Shown here: positions 20,249 through 33,394 of the stretch, in pieces
Layout: the number at the start of each line of letters is the position of its first letter
Numbering within the stretch: the stretch's first letter is position 1
From: Megasphaera vaginalis (ex Bordigoni et al. 2020)
Lineage (GTDB): Bacteria > Bacillota > Negativicutes > Veillonellales > Megasphaeraceae
Length of the DNA: 64,000 nucleotides
Reading direction: 5' to 3'
NCBI RefSeq assembly: GCF_900240295.1
Contig: NZ_OEQB01000004.1
Span: 1 to 64,000, forward strand
Position numbers and translations under genes: made by a program
Notes under the pieces: generated by a model
Databases searched by the model: none
What the model was told of the DNA's origin: nothing
What the model saw: only the letters and a program-made list of their open reading frames with translations

Positions 20249-21925
<1,677 letters not shown>

Positions 21926-21926
<1 letters not shown>

Positions 21927-22609
21927 TGCCGCCGGCAGGGCAAATTCCCGAACATTGCGCCCTCTGCCGCACCTTATCGCCGTCGCAGCGCGAAACGTTA
22001 CGTTGCAGCCGCTACAGCCGTGTCCGCACCTATGCCGCCGGTGAGCGCATTTTTTGGGAAGGAGACGTGCCGGACAGCATGCTCCTGCTGCTGCAAGGCG
22101 CCGTTTTGATCGCCAAAGATACGCCGTCAGGAAAACAGATGGTTTTTGCACACATTACGGAGCCGGGCGATCTGATCGGCGAAATCTATGCATTCATGAG
22201 ACAGCCGACGTATGACAAAAATGCCGTCGCCGCCGAAAACACCGCGATCCTTGCCATCAATCAGGCGATCTTTCACGATCCGGATCCGTCTGTTCAGGCC
22301 ATTACGGCCGTACTGCAACAAAATTTGCTGACAATTTTCGCGCAAAAAGCGTACATGATGAGCCGCAAGCTGATGATCCTCAGCAGCACTACGCTGCGTG
22401 AAAAACTGGCTCGTTTCATCCTGAGCCAGCCATTGACAGGTTCTACATTGCCGCTTTCGCTGACGCGGGAAGAACTGGCCGCCTACCTGAACGTGGCCAG
22501 GCCGTCACTGTCCCGTGAATTGGGACGGATGGCTGCAGAAGGGATTATCTCCTGCCAAAAAAACAGCATCACCGTTTTACAACAGGAAAAATTGGCAGCG
22601 TATATTTGA
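21926..22609 (+). CDS. Crp/Fnr family transcription regulator
   Basis: A 227-residue regulator. It has an N-terminal cyclic-nucleotide-binding-like beta roll (about residues 30-140), a long dimerisation helix and a C-terminal winged HTH (about 165-220, with LTREELAAYLNVARPSLSRELGRM as recognition region). Cys11, Cys14 and Cys27 at the N-terminus could bind a cluster or act as a redox switch; the arrangement is not canonical Fnr. It looks like the HcpR-type group that senses nitrosative or redox stress. The ATG overlaps the enolase stop (TGATG). A palindrome TGTAAC-N4-GTTACA just downstream, before the DUF2249 gene, is a plausible binding site. Confidence 0.88.
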
Positions 22610-22610
22610 C

Positions 22611-22645
22611 AAAAGACTGCCGGAATATAATTCCGGCAGTCTTTT
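22611..22645 (+). terminator. intrinsic terminator after the Crp/Fnr regulator
   Basis: AAAAGACTGCCGGAA pairs with TTCCGGCAGTCTTTT around a short loop, immediately after the regulator's stop codon. Confidence 0.9.
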
Positions 22646-22652
22646 GTTATTT

Positions 22653-22668
22653 TGTAACTTATGTTACA
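22653..22668 (+). promoter_or_regulatory. Crp/Fnr-type operator at -41.5 of the DUF2249 gene
   Basis: The 16-base palindrome TGTAACTTATGTTACA is centred at 22660.5. The -10 hexamer TATACT is at 22690-22695, giving a start near 22702 and placing the palindrome at -41.5, the class II activator position. No good -35 hexamer is present, as expected for an activator-dependent promoter. Confidence 0.7.
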
Positions 22669-22746
22669 GAAAAAACAGCTTCCCTTTCGTATACTAATCG
22701 CGTAAGGAAATGTATCTGCTTTCCAAAAAACGAAAGGATGATTCTT

Positions 22747-23433
22747 ATGGCATTTGAAAACTGGCAAGATAAAATGAATACATTCAAGACGATCGACGTC
22801 CGCCACGTACAAGGAAACTTCTTTCCGGGCCTGCAAAAACAGGCCGCGGCTTTAAAAGAAGGGGAAGGACTGACCATCATTCAGACTTTTGAACCTCGCC
22901 CTCTCTATGAATCCCTGGCAGCGATGGGGTTTGAATACCACACCGAACAAACAGGTGAAACCGAATTCCACACGTACTTCTGCCGCACGAAGGTAAGCGA
23001 GTCGGCAGCGCCGCCGTTCCGGCCTCTGGCCCTGCTGAACTATCCCCTGATTGACGAAGGCCTCGGCAAAATTGCCGTTGACTTCTGGGATCTCACGTGG
23101 AATGACGCGAAACGCAGCTTATCGTACGAAATGCGCCTTTTGCTTTCGCTGGCCAATGCCGTCGGCGCCGGACGCATCCGCCAAGCGACGCGGGAGCTCG
23201 TCAAAGCGTATGTTCACGGCCTCGATTCGGCGGCGCTAGACGATGTTTTCGAGCTTCTCGCCTGGAATCAGGGCATCGGCTTTTTCAGCTCCGAAATCGG
23301 CCCGTCCCCGCTCTTCCAAGCCTACAAGCTGATTAAAAACAGCGAAAAAAAGGGCGACGACCGCGCGGAGATCATCGCCGCATTGTTAGCCAAGTTCGGA
23401 GAAAAAAATCCTGAAGTCACGGTGCAGTCGTAA
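22747..23433 (+). CDS. DUF2249 domain protein with a C-terminal helical domain
   Basis: A 228-residue cytoplasmic protein. Residues about 13-75 form a DUF2249 domain (TIDVR..., a GEGLTIIQTFEPRPLYESL segment and MGFEY), a TusA-like small fold often found with nitrosative-stress and denitrification genes. The C-terminal half (about 110-215) is helical and resembles the carboxymuconolactone decarboxylase/AhpD-type fold (LANAVGAGRIRQATRELVKA), but has no CxxC pair, so peroxidase activity is unlikely. Start at 22747 with CGAAAGGA upstream. The -41.5 palindrome and the neighbouring Crp/Fnr gene suggest activation under nitrosative or redox stress. Confidence 0.8.
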   Translation: MAFENWQDKMNTFKTIDVRHVQGNFFPGLQKQAAALKEGEGLTIIQTFEPRPLYESLAAMGFEYHTEQTGETEFHTYFCRTKVSESAAPPFRPLALLNYPLIDEGLGKIAVDFWDLTWNDAKRSLSYEMRLLLSLANAVGAGRIRQATRELVKAYVHGLDSAALDDVFELLAWNQGIGFFSSEIGPSPLFQAYKLIKNSEKKGDDRAEIIAALLAKFGEKNPEVTVQS

Positions 23434-27319: not shown

Positions 27320-28513
27320 TCATAACGTCTTGTATACATCGGGAAAGACACGGACGCTTCGCTTTAAGATCCCCGTCACGTAGGCAATAAAAATCCCGTA
27401 ATTCGTCATGGCTACGCCTTGGTCCGCCGCACATTTCATGCGGTACTGCACTTCCCGCTCATTAAGCATACAACTGCCGCAGTGAATAATCAACTCATAC
27501 GGGGACAGATCGTCGGGAAATTCCGTACCGCTCGCCGTTTCGAACGTGATCGCCGCACCGGTATGCCGCTGCAGCCAGCGCGGAATCTTTACCGTGCCGA
27601 TGTCATCGCATTGGCGATGATGCGTACAGCCTTCGGCAATCAGCACCTTGCTGTGATTATGCAGCGTCTCGACGGCCGCCACGCCGCGGACGGCGCTGGC
27701 TAACAGTCCTTTATGCCGAGCCATAAGGATCGAAAAAGACGTCAGCAAGATCGAATCGGGCGTCTGCGCCGCCACCGTTTGAAAGGCCTGACTGTCGGTG
27801 ATGACTAAGGCCGGCGCCGTGCCGAGACGGGTCAGCGTCGCGGCGACTTCGTTTTCTTTGACGACGACAACGACGGCGTCACTGTCCAGGACTTCGCGGA
27901 TCGTCTGCTGCTGCGGCAGGATCAGACGGCCCTTCGGCGCCGCCGAATCGATGGGTACGACGAGAAGCACCAGATCGTGCGGCTTAACCAGATCGGCCAC
28001 AATAGGCACACGTTCACTGTTTGGCACGGTGGCGCCAAGGCGTTCTTTTAATTCCCAAATACCGGCGCCCGTAGCGGCGCTGACGGCCAGTTCCCGCTCG
28101 CCGCCGAGGTGCGGCGCTTGCAGATCGGTCTTGTTCCAAACGAGCAGATATGGGATTTTTTTCGCTTCGATCAGAGCGATGATCTCCTCATCGACAGGAC
28201 GCAACCCGACGGTACTGTCGACGATGACGACGGCGATATCCGTCTTGTTCAACACGTGCCGCGTCTTTTTCACGCGCAGTTCACCTAGCTTGCCCGTATC
28301 GTCAAAGCCGGGCGTATCGATGATCATGACCGGCCCGAGCGGCAAGAGTTCCATGGCCTTGTAAACGGGATCCGTCGTCGTCCCCTTCGTCTCGGAAACA
28401 ATCGCCAGATTCTGCCCCGTTACGGCGTTGACAACGCTCGATTTGCCGGCATTGCGGCAACCGAAAAACCCGATATGCAGCCGCTCTCCTGACGGCGTAT
28501 CATTTAATCCCAT
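27320..28513 (-). CDS. hydF: [FeFe]-hydrogenase maturation GTPase HydF
   Basis: A 397-residue scaffold protein that carries the 2Fe precursor of the H-cluster and passes it to HydA. It has an N-terminal GTPase domain (P-loop GCRNAGKSS at about 18-26, DTPGFDD, NKTD), a dimerisation domain, and a C-terminal cluster domain with EGCTHHRQCDD and HCGSCMLNEREV, which supply the His and three Cys ligands. Length is normal. HydE and HydG are absent from the window, and the gene lies in an operon with nitrogenase-like and hyp genes rather than with hydEG. Either it serves the [FeFe] hydrogenase encoded elsewhere or it is a scaffold for the local system. Confidence 0.93.
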   Translation of the reverse strand: MGLNDTPSGERLHIGFFGCRNAGKSSVVNAVTGQNLAIVSETKGTTTDPVYKAMELLPLGPVMIIDTPGFDDTGKLGELRVKKTRHVLNKTDIAVVIVDSTVGLRPVDEEIIALIEAKKIPYLLVWNKTDLQAPHLGGERELAVSAATGAGIWELKERLGATVPNSERVPIVADLVKPHDLVLLVVPIDSAAPKGRLILPQQQTIREVLDSDAVVVVVKENEVAATLTRLGTAPALVITDSQAFQTVAAQTPDSILLTSFSILMARHKGLLASAVRGVAAVETLHNHSKVLIAEGCTHHRQCDDIGTVKIPRWLQRHTGAAITFETASGTEFPDDLSPYELIIHCGSCMLNEREVQYRMKCAADQGVAMTNYGIFIAYVTGILKRSVRVFPDVYKTL

Positions 28514-29046
28514 CCGTACTCCCCCTCTTCCGGCAGATAGCGGGACCGCCCGTCGGCAGCGGCGAGTTTCAACGCCGCCGTCACCGCGTCGTTCAAAGCC
28601 GCGGCGGCGACATAAGGCTGTCCGAACCGTTCCTGCAAAACGGCGGCCGCCGGCAGGCCTGCCGCCGTGACGACGAGATTGGCGGCCGCTGCCCCGGCTC
28701 GAACAAGGTCGTCAAAATCGCCGCCGCAGCCCCATACGCCATGTACGATAAACCCCTGACGCTGCAAAAAACGCACGGCGTCCCGCCTCTGTTCCGGCGA
28801 AATAACGCCAAGTAAATTGATCTTTTTCGGCGGCGCCGCCGCTGTAAAGTCCGCCTGCCACGAGCAACATTGCGACATCACCGGCGCAGTTGGACAGTCC
28901 GCCGCGCAATGACGGGCCACGTAGGCCAGACAGGCGGCGCCGTCAAGCCCTGCCGTAGCCAGCTGTACAGCCGGCGGAAGCCGTCGTATGCGGCGCAGTT
29001 GATCCTGTTCCTTCTCCACAAACTCGCTCCTTCCCGTCTCAGTCAT
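28504..29046 (-). CDS. short nitrogenase-component-1-like fragment protein with a Cys-rich N-terminus
   Basis: A 180-residue protein. Residues about 75-150 (NLLGVISPEQRRDAV...VVTAAGLPAAAVLQ) align by eye with the middle domain of the D-like proteins in this operon, such as the NLLGLTPLDF...VVSATGFYLA region of the gene ending at 29803. The preceding region has Cys39, Cys47, Cys51, Cys60 and Cys61, close enough to bind a cluster. It lacks the rest of a component 1 subunit. It overlaps the NifH-like gene by 8 bases and hydF by 10, so it is tightly coupled and probably not a random relic. Possible roles are a carrier or chaperone for a cofactor intermediate, like NifX/NafY proteins; this is inference. 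Confidence 0.7.
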   Translation of the reverse strand: MTETGRSEFVEKEQDQLRRIRRLPPAVQLATAGLDGAACLAYVARHCAADCPTAPVMSQCCSWQADFTAAAPPKKINLLGVISPEQRRDAVRFLQRQGFIVHGVWGCGGDFDDLVRAGAAAANLVVTAAGLPAAAVLQERFGQPYVAAAALNDAVTAALKLAAADGRSRYLPEEGEYGWD

Positions 29047-29788
29047 CGGCGACCAACGTTGCGGCAAAATCCATATACGTCCGACTGACCGGCAGCGTGC
29101 GGTCTCCTTCGACGACGGTCATGCCGCGGTCTTCGTAATACTGAATCTCTTTGCTCCGCGGAATATCGGCAACGATGGGAACGCCGCACGCGTCGGCAAA
29201 GACGCGAACGCGCTCGTACTCGGCATCGACGTCGCGCCGATTGAGGATAATTCCCTTGACTTGCGCATAGCCGCGGTCGCGAAAATTCCGCACGGCCCGA
29301 TAGATATTGGCAGCCGCATAAAGGGACATCTTTTCCCCGGATGTGACGATAAATATTTCCTTGGCGTAGCCGTCGCGAATAGGCGACGAGAAGCCGCCGC
29401 AAACGACGTCGCCAAGCACATCGTAGAGAACCACGTCAGGCCGGATCCGCTCAAAAACCTCGAGTTCTTCGAGCAAATCGAAGGTGGCAATAATGCCGCG
29501 GCCGGCACAGCCGAGGCCCGGCGTCGGCCCGCCCGTTTCGATACAAAAAACGTTGCCGTAACCGTATTTTCCCAAATGATCGAAATCAGGCGCCGCCGTA
29601 TACTTCCGATAATAGTCCATAACCGGCATGACGGGCTCCCCGTGAAGCAGATTAAGCGTCGAATCGGCCTTCGGATCACAGCCGATCTGAATGACTTGCC
29701 GCTGCAGAAGCGCCAGCGCCGCCGCCACGTTGGCAGTCGTCGTCGACTTGCCGATGCCGCCTTTACCGTAAATGGCAACTTTCCTCAT
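29039..29788 (-). CDS. NifH-like Fe protein 1 (nitrogenase reductase superfamily)
   Basis: A 249-residue ATP-dependent reductase. It has the P-loop GKGGIGKST (8-16), the CDPKADST switch (37-44), and the two Cys that bind the bridging 4Fe-4S cluster of the homodimer, Cys94 (GLGCAGRG) and Cys130 (GDVVCGG). Arg97, the site ADP-ribosylated in some NifH proteins, is kept. It would transfer electrons to the D/K-like proteins encoded upstream. It is shorter than classic NifH (about 270-295), like Fe proteins of the nitrogenase-like groups. Start at 29788 follows GGGAGGA; the frame extends 18 bases further without support. Confidence 0.93.
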   Translation of the reverse strand: MRKVAIYGKGGIGKSTTTANVAAALALLQRQVIQIGCDPKADSTLNLLHGEPVMPVMDYYRKYTAAPDFDHLGKYGYGNVFCIETGGPTPGLGCAGRGIIATFDLLEELEVFERIRPDVVLYDVLGDVVCGGFSSPIRDGYAKEIFIVTSGEKMSLYAAANIYRAVRNFRDRGYAQVKGIILNRRDVDAEYERVRVFADACGVPIVADIPRSKEIQYYEDRGMTVVEGDRTLPVSRTYMDFAATLVADD

Positions 29789-29802
29789 TGCAGAGTCCTC
29801 CC

Positions 29803-31029
29803 TCACAAGTTCTTTTCATCAGCCCACGCCTCCATGGCGCTGCCGATGAAAAGGGGAATATCCCGACGGTAATGCCGTCCCGAATACGCTTCATGGGGAA
29901 AGGAGATGAACTTTCCCGCTTCTTCCGGCAAGAGCCGGCTGTAAATGGGATCGGCAATAACACGCCGTCCTTTGCGGCATTCGCTGCGCAGTACGTCTTC
30001 GACGCTAACGGCGGCAATGTCCGTTAAGAGCAGCGACGGCGCATCGGCCATAGGGCAAATGAGCCGGATCGACGCCGACGGCTGCCGCCGCCGCAGAAAC
30101 TGCCGCAGCGACAGGAGCCAGACGGGCTCGCCGATCAGTACCAGATCGCAAGGGCTGTCGTCATACACCTGCTCCGCCTTCCAGGCATTCAACTCCGCCA
30201 TGGCATGCTTCGCCTTCAGCCGCTTTTCCGTTCCCCTGAGTCCGGTCAGATACGCCATGTCGCCGCGCTGCAGTGCGGCAATCCAAGCCGCTTCACCGGC
30301 AGCGCCGACGGGAATGCCGACGACATACGGGATGCCATATGCTTCTTGCATATATTGCGCCAAGTAAAAACCGGTCGCTGAAACGACGGCATTGACGTCG
30401 GCATCAGCCGCCTGCGCCAACCGCTCGGGACCATCTCCCATAGACCATGACGACTGCAGAATCAGCCCCCGATCAGCAAGCAGTTTTTTCAACGTCGTCG
30501 CATTGCCGACAACGGAAAAATCCAGAGGCGTCAGCCCCAGGAGATTGACGCGCCGCGCCGGCAGCTGCGGCGCCTTCGTCGGCTCCCGGAGAAACCGTTT
30601 GGCATAGGCCACATACGCTTCGCCGGCGCCGGGCAGATAACTGTGAATACCGTCGGTACGGAACCCGAAAGTCGGAATCCCCGTCCGCCTTTCCGTCACC
30701 TTTTCGATTCCTTGAAAATCCGTACCGATGGCGTTGGGCATCGGACTGCCGCCGATGGCGATGAACTGCGGGCGCGTCTCTGCCGCGGCAGCGGCAATAT
30801 CGTCGATGAGCCGGCTGTCATCGCCTTGCACCGCGTCAATTTCACGCAGACCCGAAATATAGATCATGCTCGGCGTATCGTACCATCGCGGCTCGTCATG
30901 CGTATTATATGTCGAATTACACCCGGACGCATCGTGCATGACGATCAGCCCGCCCAACTCGAAAAGCGCCGACGCCATGCCGAAAAGGTCGACGGCATAC
31001 GTAGAAAGCACGCGCTGTGCCTGTTTCAC
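29803..31029 (-). CDS. nitrogenase-component-1-like protein D1
   Basis: A 408-residue member of the NifD/NifK/BchN/CfbD superfamily. It shares the segment MHDASGC (Cys37) and HDEPRW with the paralogue ending at 36950, corresponding to the GPxGC cluster-ligand region of NifD; the other two NifD cluster Cys positions are not Cys. I choose GTG at 31029: it overlaps the previous stop (GTGA) and makes the first 27 residues line up without gaps with the paralogue, ahead of a TTG at 31044. With the adjacent K-like protein it would form a heteromer reduced by the NifH-like protein. The substrate is unknown. Confidence 0.85.
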   Translation of the reverse strand: MKQAQRVLSTYAVDLFGMASALFELGGLIVMHDASGCNSTYNTHDEPRWYDTPSMIYISGLREIDAVQGDDSRLIDDIAAAAAETRPQFIAIGGSPMPNAIGTDFQGIEKVTERRTGIPTFGFRTDGIHSYLPGAGEAYVAYAKRFLREPTKAPQLPARRVNLLGLTPLDFSVVGNATTLKKLLADRGLILQSSWSMGDGPERLAQAADADVNAVVSATGFYLAQYMQEAYGIPYVVGIPVGAAGEAAWIAALQRGDMAYLTGLRGTEKRLKAKHAMAELNAWKAEQVYDDSPCDLVLIGEPVWLLSLRQFLRRRQPSASIRLICPMADAPSLLLTDIAAVSVEDVLRSECRKGRRVIADPIYSRLLPEEAGKFISFPHEAYSGRHYRRDIPLFIGSAMEAWADEKNL

Positions 31030-32375
31030 CCGCGACACCCCCAAGCTTTAATTTGAATAATGGACCGTACATCTTTTGTTTCTTCGCCGGCGTCGCCGAT
31101 CAGGTCGAGAAGCTTCAAGATGCCGACGTAACCATATAAACCGCTGTTTTCGATAAGATTGACGAAATGCGGCGTATTCGTAAAATATGCCGCCATCTGC
31201 CCGATTGCCAACACCTTCCCGTACCGTTCATTATCATCCCGTTTCAACAACCGCCGCTTGTAGTGCGACGTCGACCGCAGCGACAGGTGCGGATAAGCGC
31301 TTTGCAGGTACCGGAAATCAGCCTCTTCGTCACAACTGATACTGTCGAGATAAACGGCATAGACGGAAAAACCGCGGTCAAGCAGAAAACGGGCCAGGCT
31401 CAACGGTCTGGGCGTCGCCGTATAGTCAATGGCGACGGGCGTCTTGCCGACGCGCGCCAGCAATGCCTTCGCCTTCGTCTCGATGGCCCGCTCATAGCCG
31501 TCCGTATCCGGCAATTCCAGCGCGAAACGCTCGGCGACGCGGCGCAAATTGGCCCGCAGTTCTTCGTAAGAATACGTATAAGGCACGTAAATCGCTTCCT
31601 GGCCGAGACGGCGCTCCAGATCTTTCGCCGCCGCCGCCGCATTAGGCAAAAAATAAAGATTGGCCGCGGCGCTTCCCAGATTTTTATACTGTTCATACGT
31701 TTTGCAGGCGGCAAAATCTTGGATTTCCCACTTGCTGCCGCGCAACATGACCGTCAATTCATTTTCGGCATCGACAGGATAGTAATTGACGATAACATTG
31801 ACGGCCCGGCGGCGCGGCAGTTTCGTCACGGCCCGCAGCAGCTGCCGCCGTCCCAGGACATCTGGCGTAAAACGGCGTTGCAGTGTCGGAATCATGTAGC
31901 CGTCAATAAAATCGATATCGGGAAAACGGCGCCGCAACGCCCCGTAAACGACGTGCAGGTCGATGTGCATAAAATGCTGCATGCAGCTCGTAAACCCTTC
32001 GACACATTTGGGCCGGTGCGGCAGATTTTCAATGATATGCGCAATGCCGTCGATCATCATTTCTTCCAGATTTCCTTTAATGATATTTTCATTGGTCAAG
32101 GTCACCATGGAAAACCGTGCAGCGCCGCCCGGCACCTCGTCGGCCGAAAGGACGACGCCATGCAGGCAGCAGGCGCAGCAGACGTAAATCTCGTGGCATT
32201 CGGGAATGAGCAACGGCGAGTGGGCAATCGTCCAATGGCCGCGCGCCGGCGACGCATATTGCAGCCCGATCCGAAAAGGGCGCGGATAAGCCGCGTCGCC
32301 AATCCGTATTTCGGCACCGTCAGGCGTCACTACAGGCGAAATAACGTCGGGATGTATTTCGTTTTCATAAATCAT
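31026..32375 (-). CDS. nitrogenase-component-1-like protein K1
   Basis: A 449-residue component-1-like protein. Putative cluster ligands are Cys60, Cys66/67/69/70 (ECHEIYVCCACCLHG) and Cys124/Cys131 (FTSCMQHFM, matching the NifK TTC position). The run of Cys is richer than in any classic NifK. A later segment, CKTYEQYKNLGSAAANLYFL, is shared with K2 ([19 protein letters not shown]). Start at ATG 32375 is set by GGGAGA five bases upstream; a TTG 21 bases earlier overlaps hypE. It is separated from hypE by 14 bases and overlaps D1 by 4, so hyp and nif-like genes belong to one transcript. Confidence 0.85.
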   Translation of the reverse strand: MIYENEIHPDVISPVVTPDGAEIRIGDAAYPRPFRIGLQYASPARGHWTIAHSPLLIPECHEIYVCCACCLHGVVLSADEVPGGAARFSMVTLTNENIIKGNLEEMMIDGIAHIIENLPHRPKCVEGFTSCMQHFMHIDLHVVYGALRRRFPDIDFIDGYMIPTLQRRFTPDVLGRRQLLRAVTKLPRRRAVNVIVNYYPVDAENELTVMLRGSKWEIQDFAACKTYEQYKNLGSAAANLYFLPNAAAAAKDLERRLGQEAIYVPYTYSYEELRANLRRVAERFALELPDTDGYERAIETKAKALLARVGKTPVAIDYTATPRPLSLARFLLDRGFSVYAVYLDSISCDEEADFRYLQSAYPHLSLRSTSHYKRRLLKRDDNERYGKVLAIGQMAAYFTNTPHFVNLIENSGLYGYVGILKLLDLIGDAGEETKDVRSIIQIKAWGCRG

Positions 32376-32389
32376 CGTTCTCTCCCGTT

Positions 32390-33394
32390 TCAGCAAATCC
32401 GCGGCAGCAGCTCTCCGCCGGGAGGCGGCAGCAGCGTCTGCGCACCGATTTCCGTCGTCACTGTTACCTGCCCGGCGAATTCGGCAGTTACCGTGCCGAT
32501 GACGGCGGCGTGCTGCGAATACGGCCCCTGCCGCAGCACATCGACAAGCGCAGCGGCATGTTCCTGCGGTGCAATGATAACCAATCTTCCTTCACAGGCG
32601 AGATAAAGCGGTTCCAACCCGAGCATGCCGCAAACGCCGCGGACAGCCGGAGCCACGGGAACGGCAGAGCCGTCGAGCCGGATACCGACGCGGCTCTGGC
32701 CGGCAATTTCGTAAAGAACCGTACCGACGCCGCCGCGCGTGGCATCGCGCAGAACATGAAGGTCTTTCGTCACGGCAAAGAGCGACTCCACGGTCTGCCA
32801 CAACGGTGCACAATCGCTGTCGACTTCGGCATTGATGCCGTATTTATCGCGGGCCAACAAAATCGTACAACCATGGCGGCCGACATCGCCGCTGACAATA
32901 ACGGCATCACCCGGTTTAGCCAGCGATCCTGACGTTTGAATACCGTCCTGCACGACGCCGATGCCGGTCGTCGTGATAAAGAGATTGTCCACCTGCCCTT
33001 TGCCGGCTACCTTCGTATCACCGGCGACGATGCGGACGCCGGCCGCGGCAGCCGTCTCCGCCATCGCCGCCGCGTACGTTTCCACCTTCGCCAGCGGAAA
33101 TCCTTCTTCAATGACGAAGGCACAGGAAAGATACAGGGGCTTAGCCCCCATGCAAGCGAGATCGTTGACGGTGCCGCAGATACTCAGTTTGCCGATATTG
33201 CCGCCCTTGAATTCAGGCGGCGAAACGATAAAGCCGTCCGTCGTAAACGCCAGCTTCTCCTGTCCGATCGACAGGATTGCCGCATCGTCACCGGTAAATT
33301 CAGGATTCGAAAAATGAGCTTTAAAAACACTGTCGATCAACGCCGCCGTCTTGGCGCCGCCGGCGCCGTGAGCCAATGTAACTACTGTATCCAT
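32390..33394 (-). CDS. hypE: hydrogenase maturation protein HypE
   Basis: A 334-residue protein of the PurM/ThiL-like fold. HypE accepts a carbamoyl group from HypF on its C-terminal Cys and dehydrates it with ATP to a thiocyanate, the source of CN ligands. The N-terminus AHGAGGAK and the GDDAAIL segment match, and the chain ends in LLPRIC with the essential terminal Cys present. Length is normal (about 330-350). It begins directly after the hypD stop (TAAATG) and precedes K1. All key residues remain, so it should be active. Confidence 0.95.
   Translation of the reverse strand: MDTVVTLAHGAGGAKTAALIDSVFKAHFSNPEFTGDDAAILSIGQEKLAFTTDGFIVSPPEFKGGNIGKLSICGTVNDLACMGAKPLYLSCAFVIEEGFPLAKVETYAAAMAETAAAAGVRIVAGDTKVAGKGQVDNLFITTTGIGVVQDGIQTSGSLAKPGDAVIVSGDVGRHGCTILLARDKYGINAEVDSDCAPLWQTVESLFAVTKDLHVLRDATRGGVGTVLYEIAGQSRVGIRLDGSAVPVAPAVRGVCGMLGLEPLYLACEGRLVIIAPQEHAAALVDVLRQGPYSQHAAVIGTVTAEFAGQVTVTTEIGAQTLLPPPGGELLPRIC

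Follow-up and report, generated by a model that had tools for sequence, protein, structure and literature searches.

The window analysed here is a stretch of 64,000 nucleotides, and the features of the locus are itemized in Table 1. The order along the forward strand is an enolase-like ORF, the crp gene, a terminator, a palindrome, a −10 hexamer and the DUF2249 gene. The ORF upstream of crp is presumably enolase. The ATG of crp overlaps the stop of this ORF (window 20625–22609), so the regulator is probably made together with the enolase-like protein at a steady level, and is not autoregulated. A preliminary description of this DNA had placed a Crp/Fnr gene directly upstream of the palindrome; this is the case, and a strong terminator lies between the two. 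At window 27320–32396, on the minus strand, are ORFs whose translations resemble HydF, a NifH-like ATPase and two NifD/NifK-like proteins.

Table 1. Features of the crp–DUF2249 locus, with positions in the window
Feature	Position	Strand	Remarks
Crp/Fnr-family regulator gene, HcpR2-type (P0001, 227 aa)	21926..22609	+	Pfam cNMP_binding and HTH_Crp_2; helix RPSLSR; tree
Intrinsic terminator hairpin of crp gene, then T-rich stretch	22607..22649	+	−31.4 kcal/mol, z −10.8
Operator palindrome TGTAAC-TTAT-GTTACA, TGTAACTTATGTTACA	22653..22668	none	Centre 22660.5; perfect, 16 bases
−10 hexamer TATACT	22690..22695	+	Starts 29 bases past palindrome centre
Predicted transcription start (+1)	22702	+	Placed from the −10
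DUF2249 gene (P0002, 228 aa), predicted target	22747..23433	+	PF10006, 36.1 bits against a cut-off of 29.5

Direct reading of the letters confirms the palindrome. With +1 predicted at 22702 its centre (22660.5) falls at −41.5, and the TATACT lies at an offset of 29 bases from that centre, in agreement with the arrangement described earlier. The lack of a −35 is likewise borne out; allowing a spacer of 16–18 bases, the best candidate is CAGAAA, which matches at three of six positions. With a site near −41.5 of the predicted start, a −10 present and a −35 absent, the promoter has the form of a class II activator-dependent promoter. A TATATT on the minus strand, at offset 31 from the palindrome, is located inside the terminator and was read as part of the hairpin and not as a promoter.

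A search of the window for the exact 16-mer pattern gives a single hit, and none of 100 shuffles gives any. At up to two mismatches the window has two hits, which is at the level of chance (mean 0.97). The whole genome (2,206,375 bases in 17 contigs) has 42 places within two mismatches, one of them exact and none with a single mismatch, so that the window site is the sole exact GTAAC-N4-GTTAC in 2.2 Mb. It is also alone among the 42 places, taken in both directions (84 orientations), in having a −10 of at least 5/6 at offset 29; further members of the regulon were thus not found among the other 41. Hexamers of that −10 quality (at least 5/6) have a frequency of 0.0048 in the window. The window contains 102 perfect N4 palindromes with five-base arms, and only that at 22653–22668 has such a −10 at offset 29.

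In the regulator P0001 both domains of a Crp/Fnr protein, sensor and HTH, are recognized, PF00027 and PF13545 each scoring above cut-off; no NCBIfam family did so. Its cysteines are at positions 11, 14, 27 and 210 with none in the centre, and the canonical set is therefore absent, judged against what we take to be the FNR pattern. The recognition helix is NVARPSLSREL (RPSLSR at residue 192), in which Arg180 and Pro181 are present when placed by eye in CRP numbering. The preliminary description had named GTAAC-N4-GTTAC as a proposed HcpR motif of clostridia, and such a motif is in print. The HcpR2 consensus GTAACnnnnGTTAC has been tied to a change of Glu181 to Pro in the recognition helix, and Ser or Gln at that position goes with other motifs (Rodionov et al. 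2005, PMC1274295). P0001 has the R-P-S-L-S-R sequence, and an exact match to GTAACnnnnGTTAC adjoins its gene.

The genome also contains hcp (contig C5:182809–184407). Its operon has GTTGTATATACAAC and no GTAAC site, on which ground hcp was rejected as a target in this genome; we therefore term P0001 an HcpR2-type paralogue and not the hcp regulator of the organism. The earlier HcpR reading stands as regards helix, operator and hcp-linked relatives, but not as regards control of hcp here. That P0001 works like HcpR2 is well supported.

No close relative of P0001 is found in its own family (17 genomes) or order (61 genomes), where the best match is 33%. Across the class (380 genomes) its relatives, at 33–45% identity, come chiefly from a different family (f24). 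A tree was built from 82 proteins, published HcpR2 sequences not being among them; here P0001 clusters (98/93) with RP-type proteins from another family, in a clade that contains the hcp-linked regulators of loci L126, L144, L149 and L150, and stands separate from the RS-type proteins of the present genus. The long branch of P0001 leaves its precise position uncertain. The helices of L128, L142, L144 and L035 were read directly for assignment to the RP, RS and RT groups. The lack of close relatives in family and order, together with the grouping with the RP-type proteins of another family, makes it likely that this alien-looking regulator was acquired horizontally.

The pairing of helix and operator extends across the relatives. 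Three hundred bases were scanned on either side of each gene in a set of 36 RP-type loci, window included. Among the 1,024 half-sites that an N4 palindrome can have, GTAAC ranks first, found at nine of the 36 loci (several of which are close relatives of one another) against a mean over half-sites of 0.056 loci and a next-best half-site at 6. At the other 27 loci the 300 bases on each side contain no exact GTAAC palindrome. Exact GTTGT palindromes are found at none of the RP-type loci. For the 21 RS-type loci the counts are reversed, with no exact GTAAC, and GTTGT exact at seven and within one mismatch at 17; the 25 RT-type loci have neither palindrome. At up to one mismatch ACGAT, one of 68 permuted control half-sites, is found at 12 RP-type loci against 11 for GTAAC, a count that we suspect stems from conserved coding sequence. 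A third Crp type, with the helix RTAVAR or RTALAR, is seen in relatives L043–L045, L049, L050, L172, L174 and L175; an operator for this type was not found. Six genomes of the same genus have RTAVAR proteins in the tree, and DUF2249 is present in five of these (G002, G004, G006, G007 and G010) and not in G011.

L126, L144, L149 and L150 have the order crp, GTAAC palindrome, hcp-like gene, and in all four a 5/6 −10 lies at offset 29. We take these genes to be hcp-like from their N-terminal sequence and from likeness to the Prismane match of the present genome. The preliminary description proposed looking for such a site ahead of a gene for a hybrid cluster protein; this genome, where hcp has a different operator, has none there, but relatives do. 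The offset of 29 is found in five of five loci with the order crp, GTAAC site, gene (window included), and likewise in the native hcp promoters and most DUF2249 promoters (see below), which supports the class II reading put forward earlier. In L152 and L154 the palindrome is upstream of crp, adjoining a divergent frdX-like gene (followed in L154 by an hcp-like start), and the −10 at offset 29 is directed away from crp, with 5/6 in both. The site is similarly upstream of crp in L156 and L157, with a −10 on the other strand of 5/6 and 4/6 respectively; no frdX-like gene was seen at L156.

The genome encodes a second Crp-like protein, P0003, with the helix DRSAMSSEL, and thus of RS-type (R180–S181). 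Its gene lies opposite a ferredoxin-like gene, which we take to be frdX, with GTTGTTTTTGCAAC between the two and a TATACT directed toward frdX at offset 29 from GTTGC-N4-ACAAC. GTTGTTTTTGCAAC (L161 about 1475–1490; genome contig C2:322333–322348) precedes the ATG of this native HcpR-like gene by a few bases. Being so placed, and 29 bases before the frdX −10, it could serve at once for activation of frdX and for repression of the regulator gene. The single hcp of the genome sits in an apparent cupin-hcp operon; GTTGTATATACAAC is 469 bases before hcp, ahead of the cupin gene, with a TATACT at offset 29. In the native hcp promoters of this genome and nine relatives GTTGT-N4-ACAAC is found within one mismatch at 10/10 distinct loci, and all ten have a −10 of at least 5/6 at offset 29. 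The hcp set comprises 14 loci aligned from the hcp start; L119 and L122–L124, not so aligned, are outside it. Four of the 14 are not among the ten counted: L125 duplicates L121, the phylum-level loci L113 and L120 have no site, and L114, also phylum-level, has a single weak one at a distance of 1,021 bases. Two other exact GTTGT-N4-ACAAC matches (C2:310113 and C3:297154) are inside ORFs with no −10 at offset 29, and were treated as chance. This putative native HcpR-like regulator, with a second operator GTTGT-N4-ACAAC before the hcp operon and frdX, is newly found here.

Besides the present genome, 10 of the 380 searched in the class have orthologues of DUF2249, at 60–67% identity; the 12 class genomes with a DUF2249 match are these ten, that of the window and one partial. 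More distant DUF2249 genes are found in four genomes of a 398-genome phylum sample. The ten orthologues have a GTTGT-like palindrome 29 bases ahead of the −10 place, exact at L076, L077, L082 and L083, with one mismatch at L084, two at L081 and L085 and three at L078–L080 (counted by hand). The operators are weak or odd in six relatives (L077–L081 and L085); that of L077, with a −10 of 3/6, appears by eye to be embedded in a terminator-like hairpin stem. A 5/6 −10 at offset 29 is present in six of the ten orthologues, or 7/11 with the window, a set that omits the distant L087–L090 and the partial matches L086 and L091–L098. At none of L087–L090 is a palindrome of either kind, GTTGT or GTAAC, accompanied by a −10 at offset 29. 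Since GTTGT-like sites occur at the same offset in ten related genomes, the window promoter keeps the class II geometry with a changed operator, one that fits the acquired-looking HcpR2-type regulator beside it. The DUF2249 gene tree departs from the species groups, so the gene itself seems to be mobile between genomes.

In genome G019 (L076 2270–3163) an ODP (flavodiiron-like) ORF lies directly downstream of DUF2249. The frame of this ORF ends early, perhaps through a broken gene or an error of assembly; its presence is a hint of NO or oxygen. G019 has a GTTGT site before DUF2249, yet no detectable relative of P0003 and no hcp, which the model leaves unexplained. An NCBIfam search gave no family at all for DUF2249, and a single-sequence structure prediction was of low quality (pLDDT 50.8) and was set aside. 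We assume that COG4309 is the DUF2249 family. Denitrification induces DUF2249 genes in haloarchaea (PMC11218638), and the DUF2249 proteins DrpA and DrpB are proposed nitrate sensors in Thermus (PMC6282519).

Taken together, these features are best explained by a class II promoter of HcpR2 type with a single target. Very probably the HcpR2-type regulator encoded just upstream binds the palindrome and activates DUF2249 from the TATACT promoter. A P0001 dimer centred at −41.5 would stand in for the missing −35 contact; P0001 would serve this one site, while native P0003 would serve hcp and frdX through GTTGT-N4-ACAAC. The most likely signal for P0001 is NO or nitrosative stress.

It is unlikely that the regulator acts here as a repressor that stands in the way of polymerase at −41.5 and leaves the DNA on a signal. 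The palindrome does overlap the place of a −35, and HcpR repression has been predicted at other positions (PMC545781). However, no usable −35 (3/6) would remain without an activator, and the constant 29-base offset at the hcp, frdX and DUF2249 promoters is what contact with polymerase would demand, and not simple blocking. Use of the site by the native paralogue P0003 in place of the neighbouring regulator is less probable still. The orthologous DUF2249 promoters bear GTTGT-type sites that fit P0003, but the half-site of the window differs from these at 3/5 positions, and a GTAAC palindrome is found within 300 bases in none of the 21 RS-type loci, even at one mismatch. That a chance palindrome lies near an ordinary promoter can be practically dismissed: sites with two mismatches do occur at chance level, but this one is exact, absent from the shuffles, single in the genome, rightly positioned relative to the −10 and next to a regulator whose relatives have the same site.

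Under the preferred reading of activation by P0001, the operator may have a history. The case is evenly balanced that DUF2249 was moved from native HcpR control to that of the acquired HcpR2, with GTTGT changed to GTAAC at 3/5 positions and the 29-base spacing kept. On this view DUF2249 is part of the native HcpR regulon in the related genomes, and the switch would split the nitrosative-stress response into two channels insulated from each other, hcp and frdX in one and DUF2249 in the other. The change of operator may have arisen in place, or it may have arrived with an acquired cassette. The locus would tie DUF2249, of unknown function, to the HcpR response of anaerobes through a promoter anatomy common to up to 11 genomes. 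It would also be a compact natural example of rewiring in a regulon, with a protein–DNA code that can be read off: Pro at residue 181 of the recognition helix goes with GTAAC and Ser with GTTGT, while the class II position stays fixed.

The described HcpR2 regulators (PMC1274295) share with P0001 the Crp/Fnr fold, the R180–P181 helix, the GTAACnnnnGTTAC operator, the position of the regulator gene beside its target and the presence of hcp in the genome. They differ in that the target in the window is DUF2249 and not hcp, and that hcp and frdX are here placed under a second regulator with another operator. In Clostridium tetani an additional protein of HcpR2 type, the paralogue CTC0896, similarly has its predicted target beside it, a permease-ferredoxin operon; the target is different, and the accessible text describes no change of operator between the paralogues (PMC1274295). 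HcpR of Clostridioides difficile controls frdX-hcp (PMC12915319) and that of Porphyromonas gingivalis hcp, with NO binding heme in the latter (PMC12750200), both in nitrosative stress responses; these are hcp targets, in contrast to DUF2249. The accessible literature on DUF2249 and COG4309, which covers few subscription journals, contained no placement under HcpR. A parallel for the target is found in the NnrR and NsrR regulons, where COG4309 is similarly under a nitrogen-oxide regulator and near NO reductase, with other regulators and in denitrifying proteobacteria (PMC1274295).
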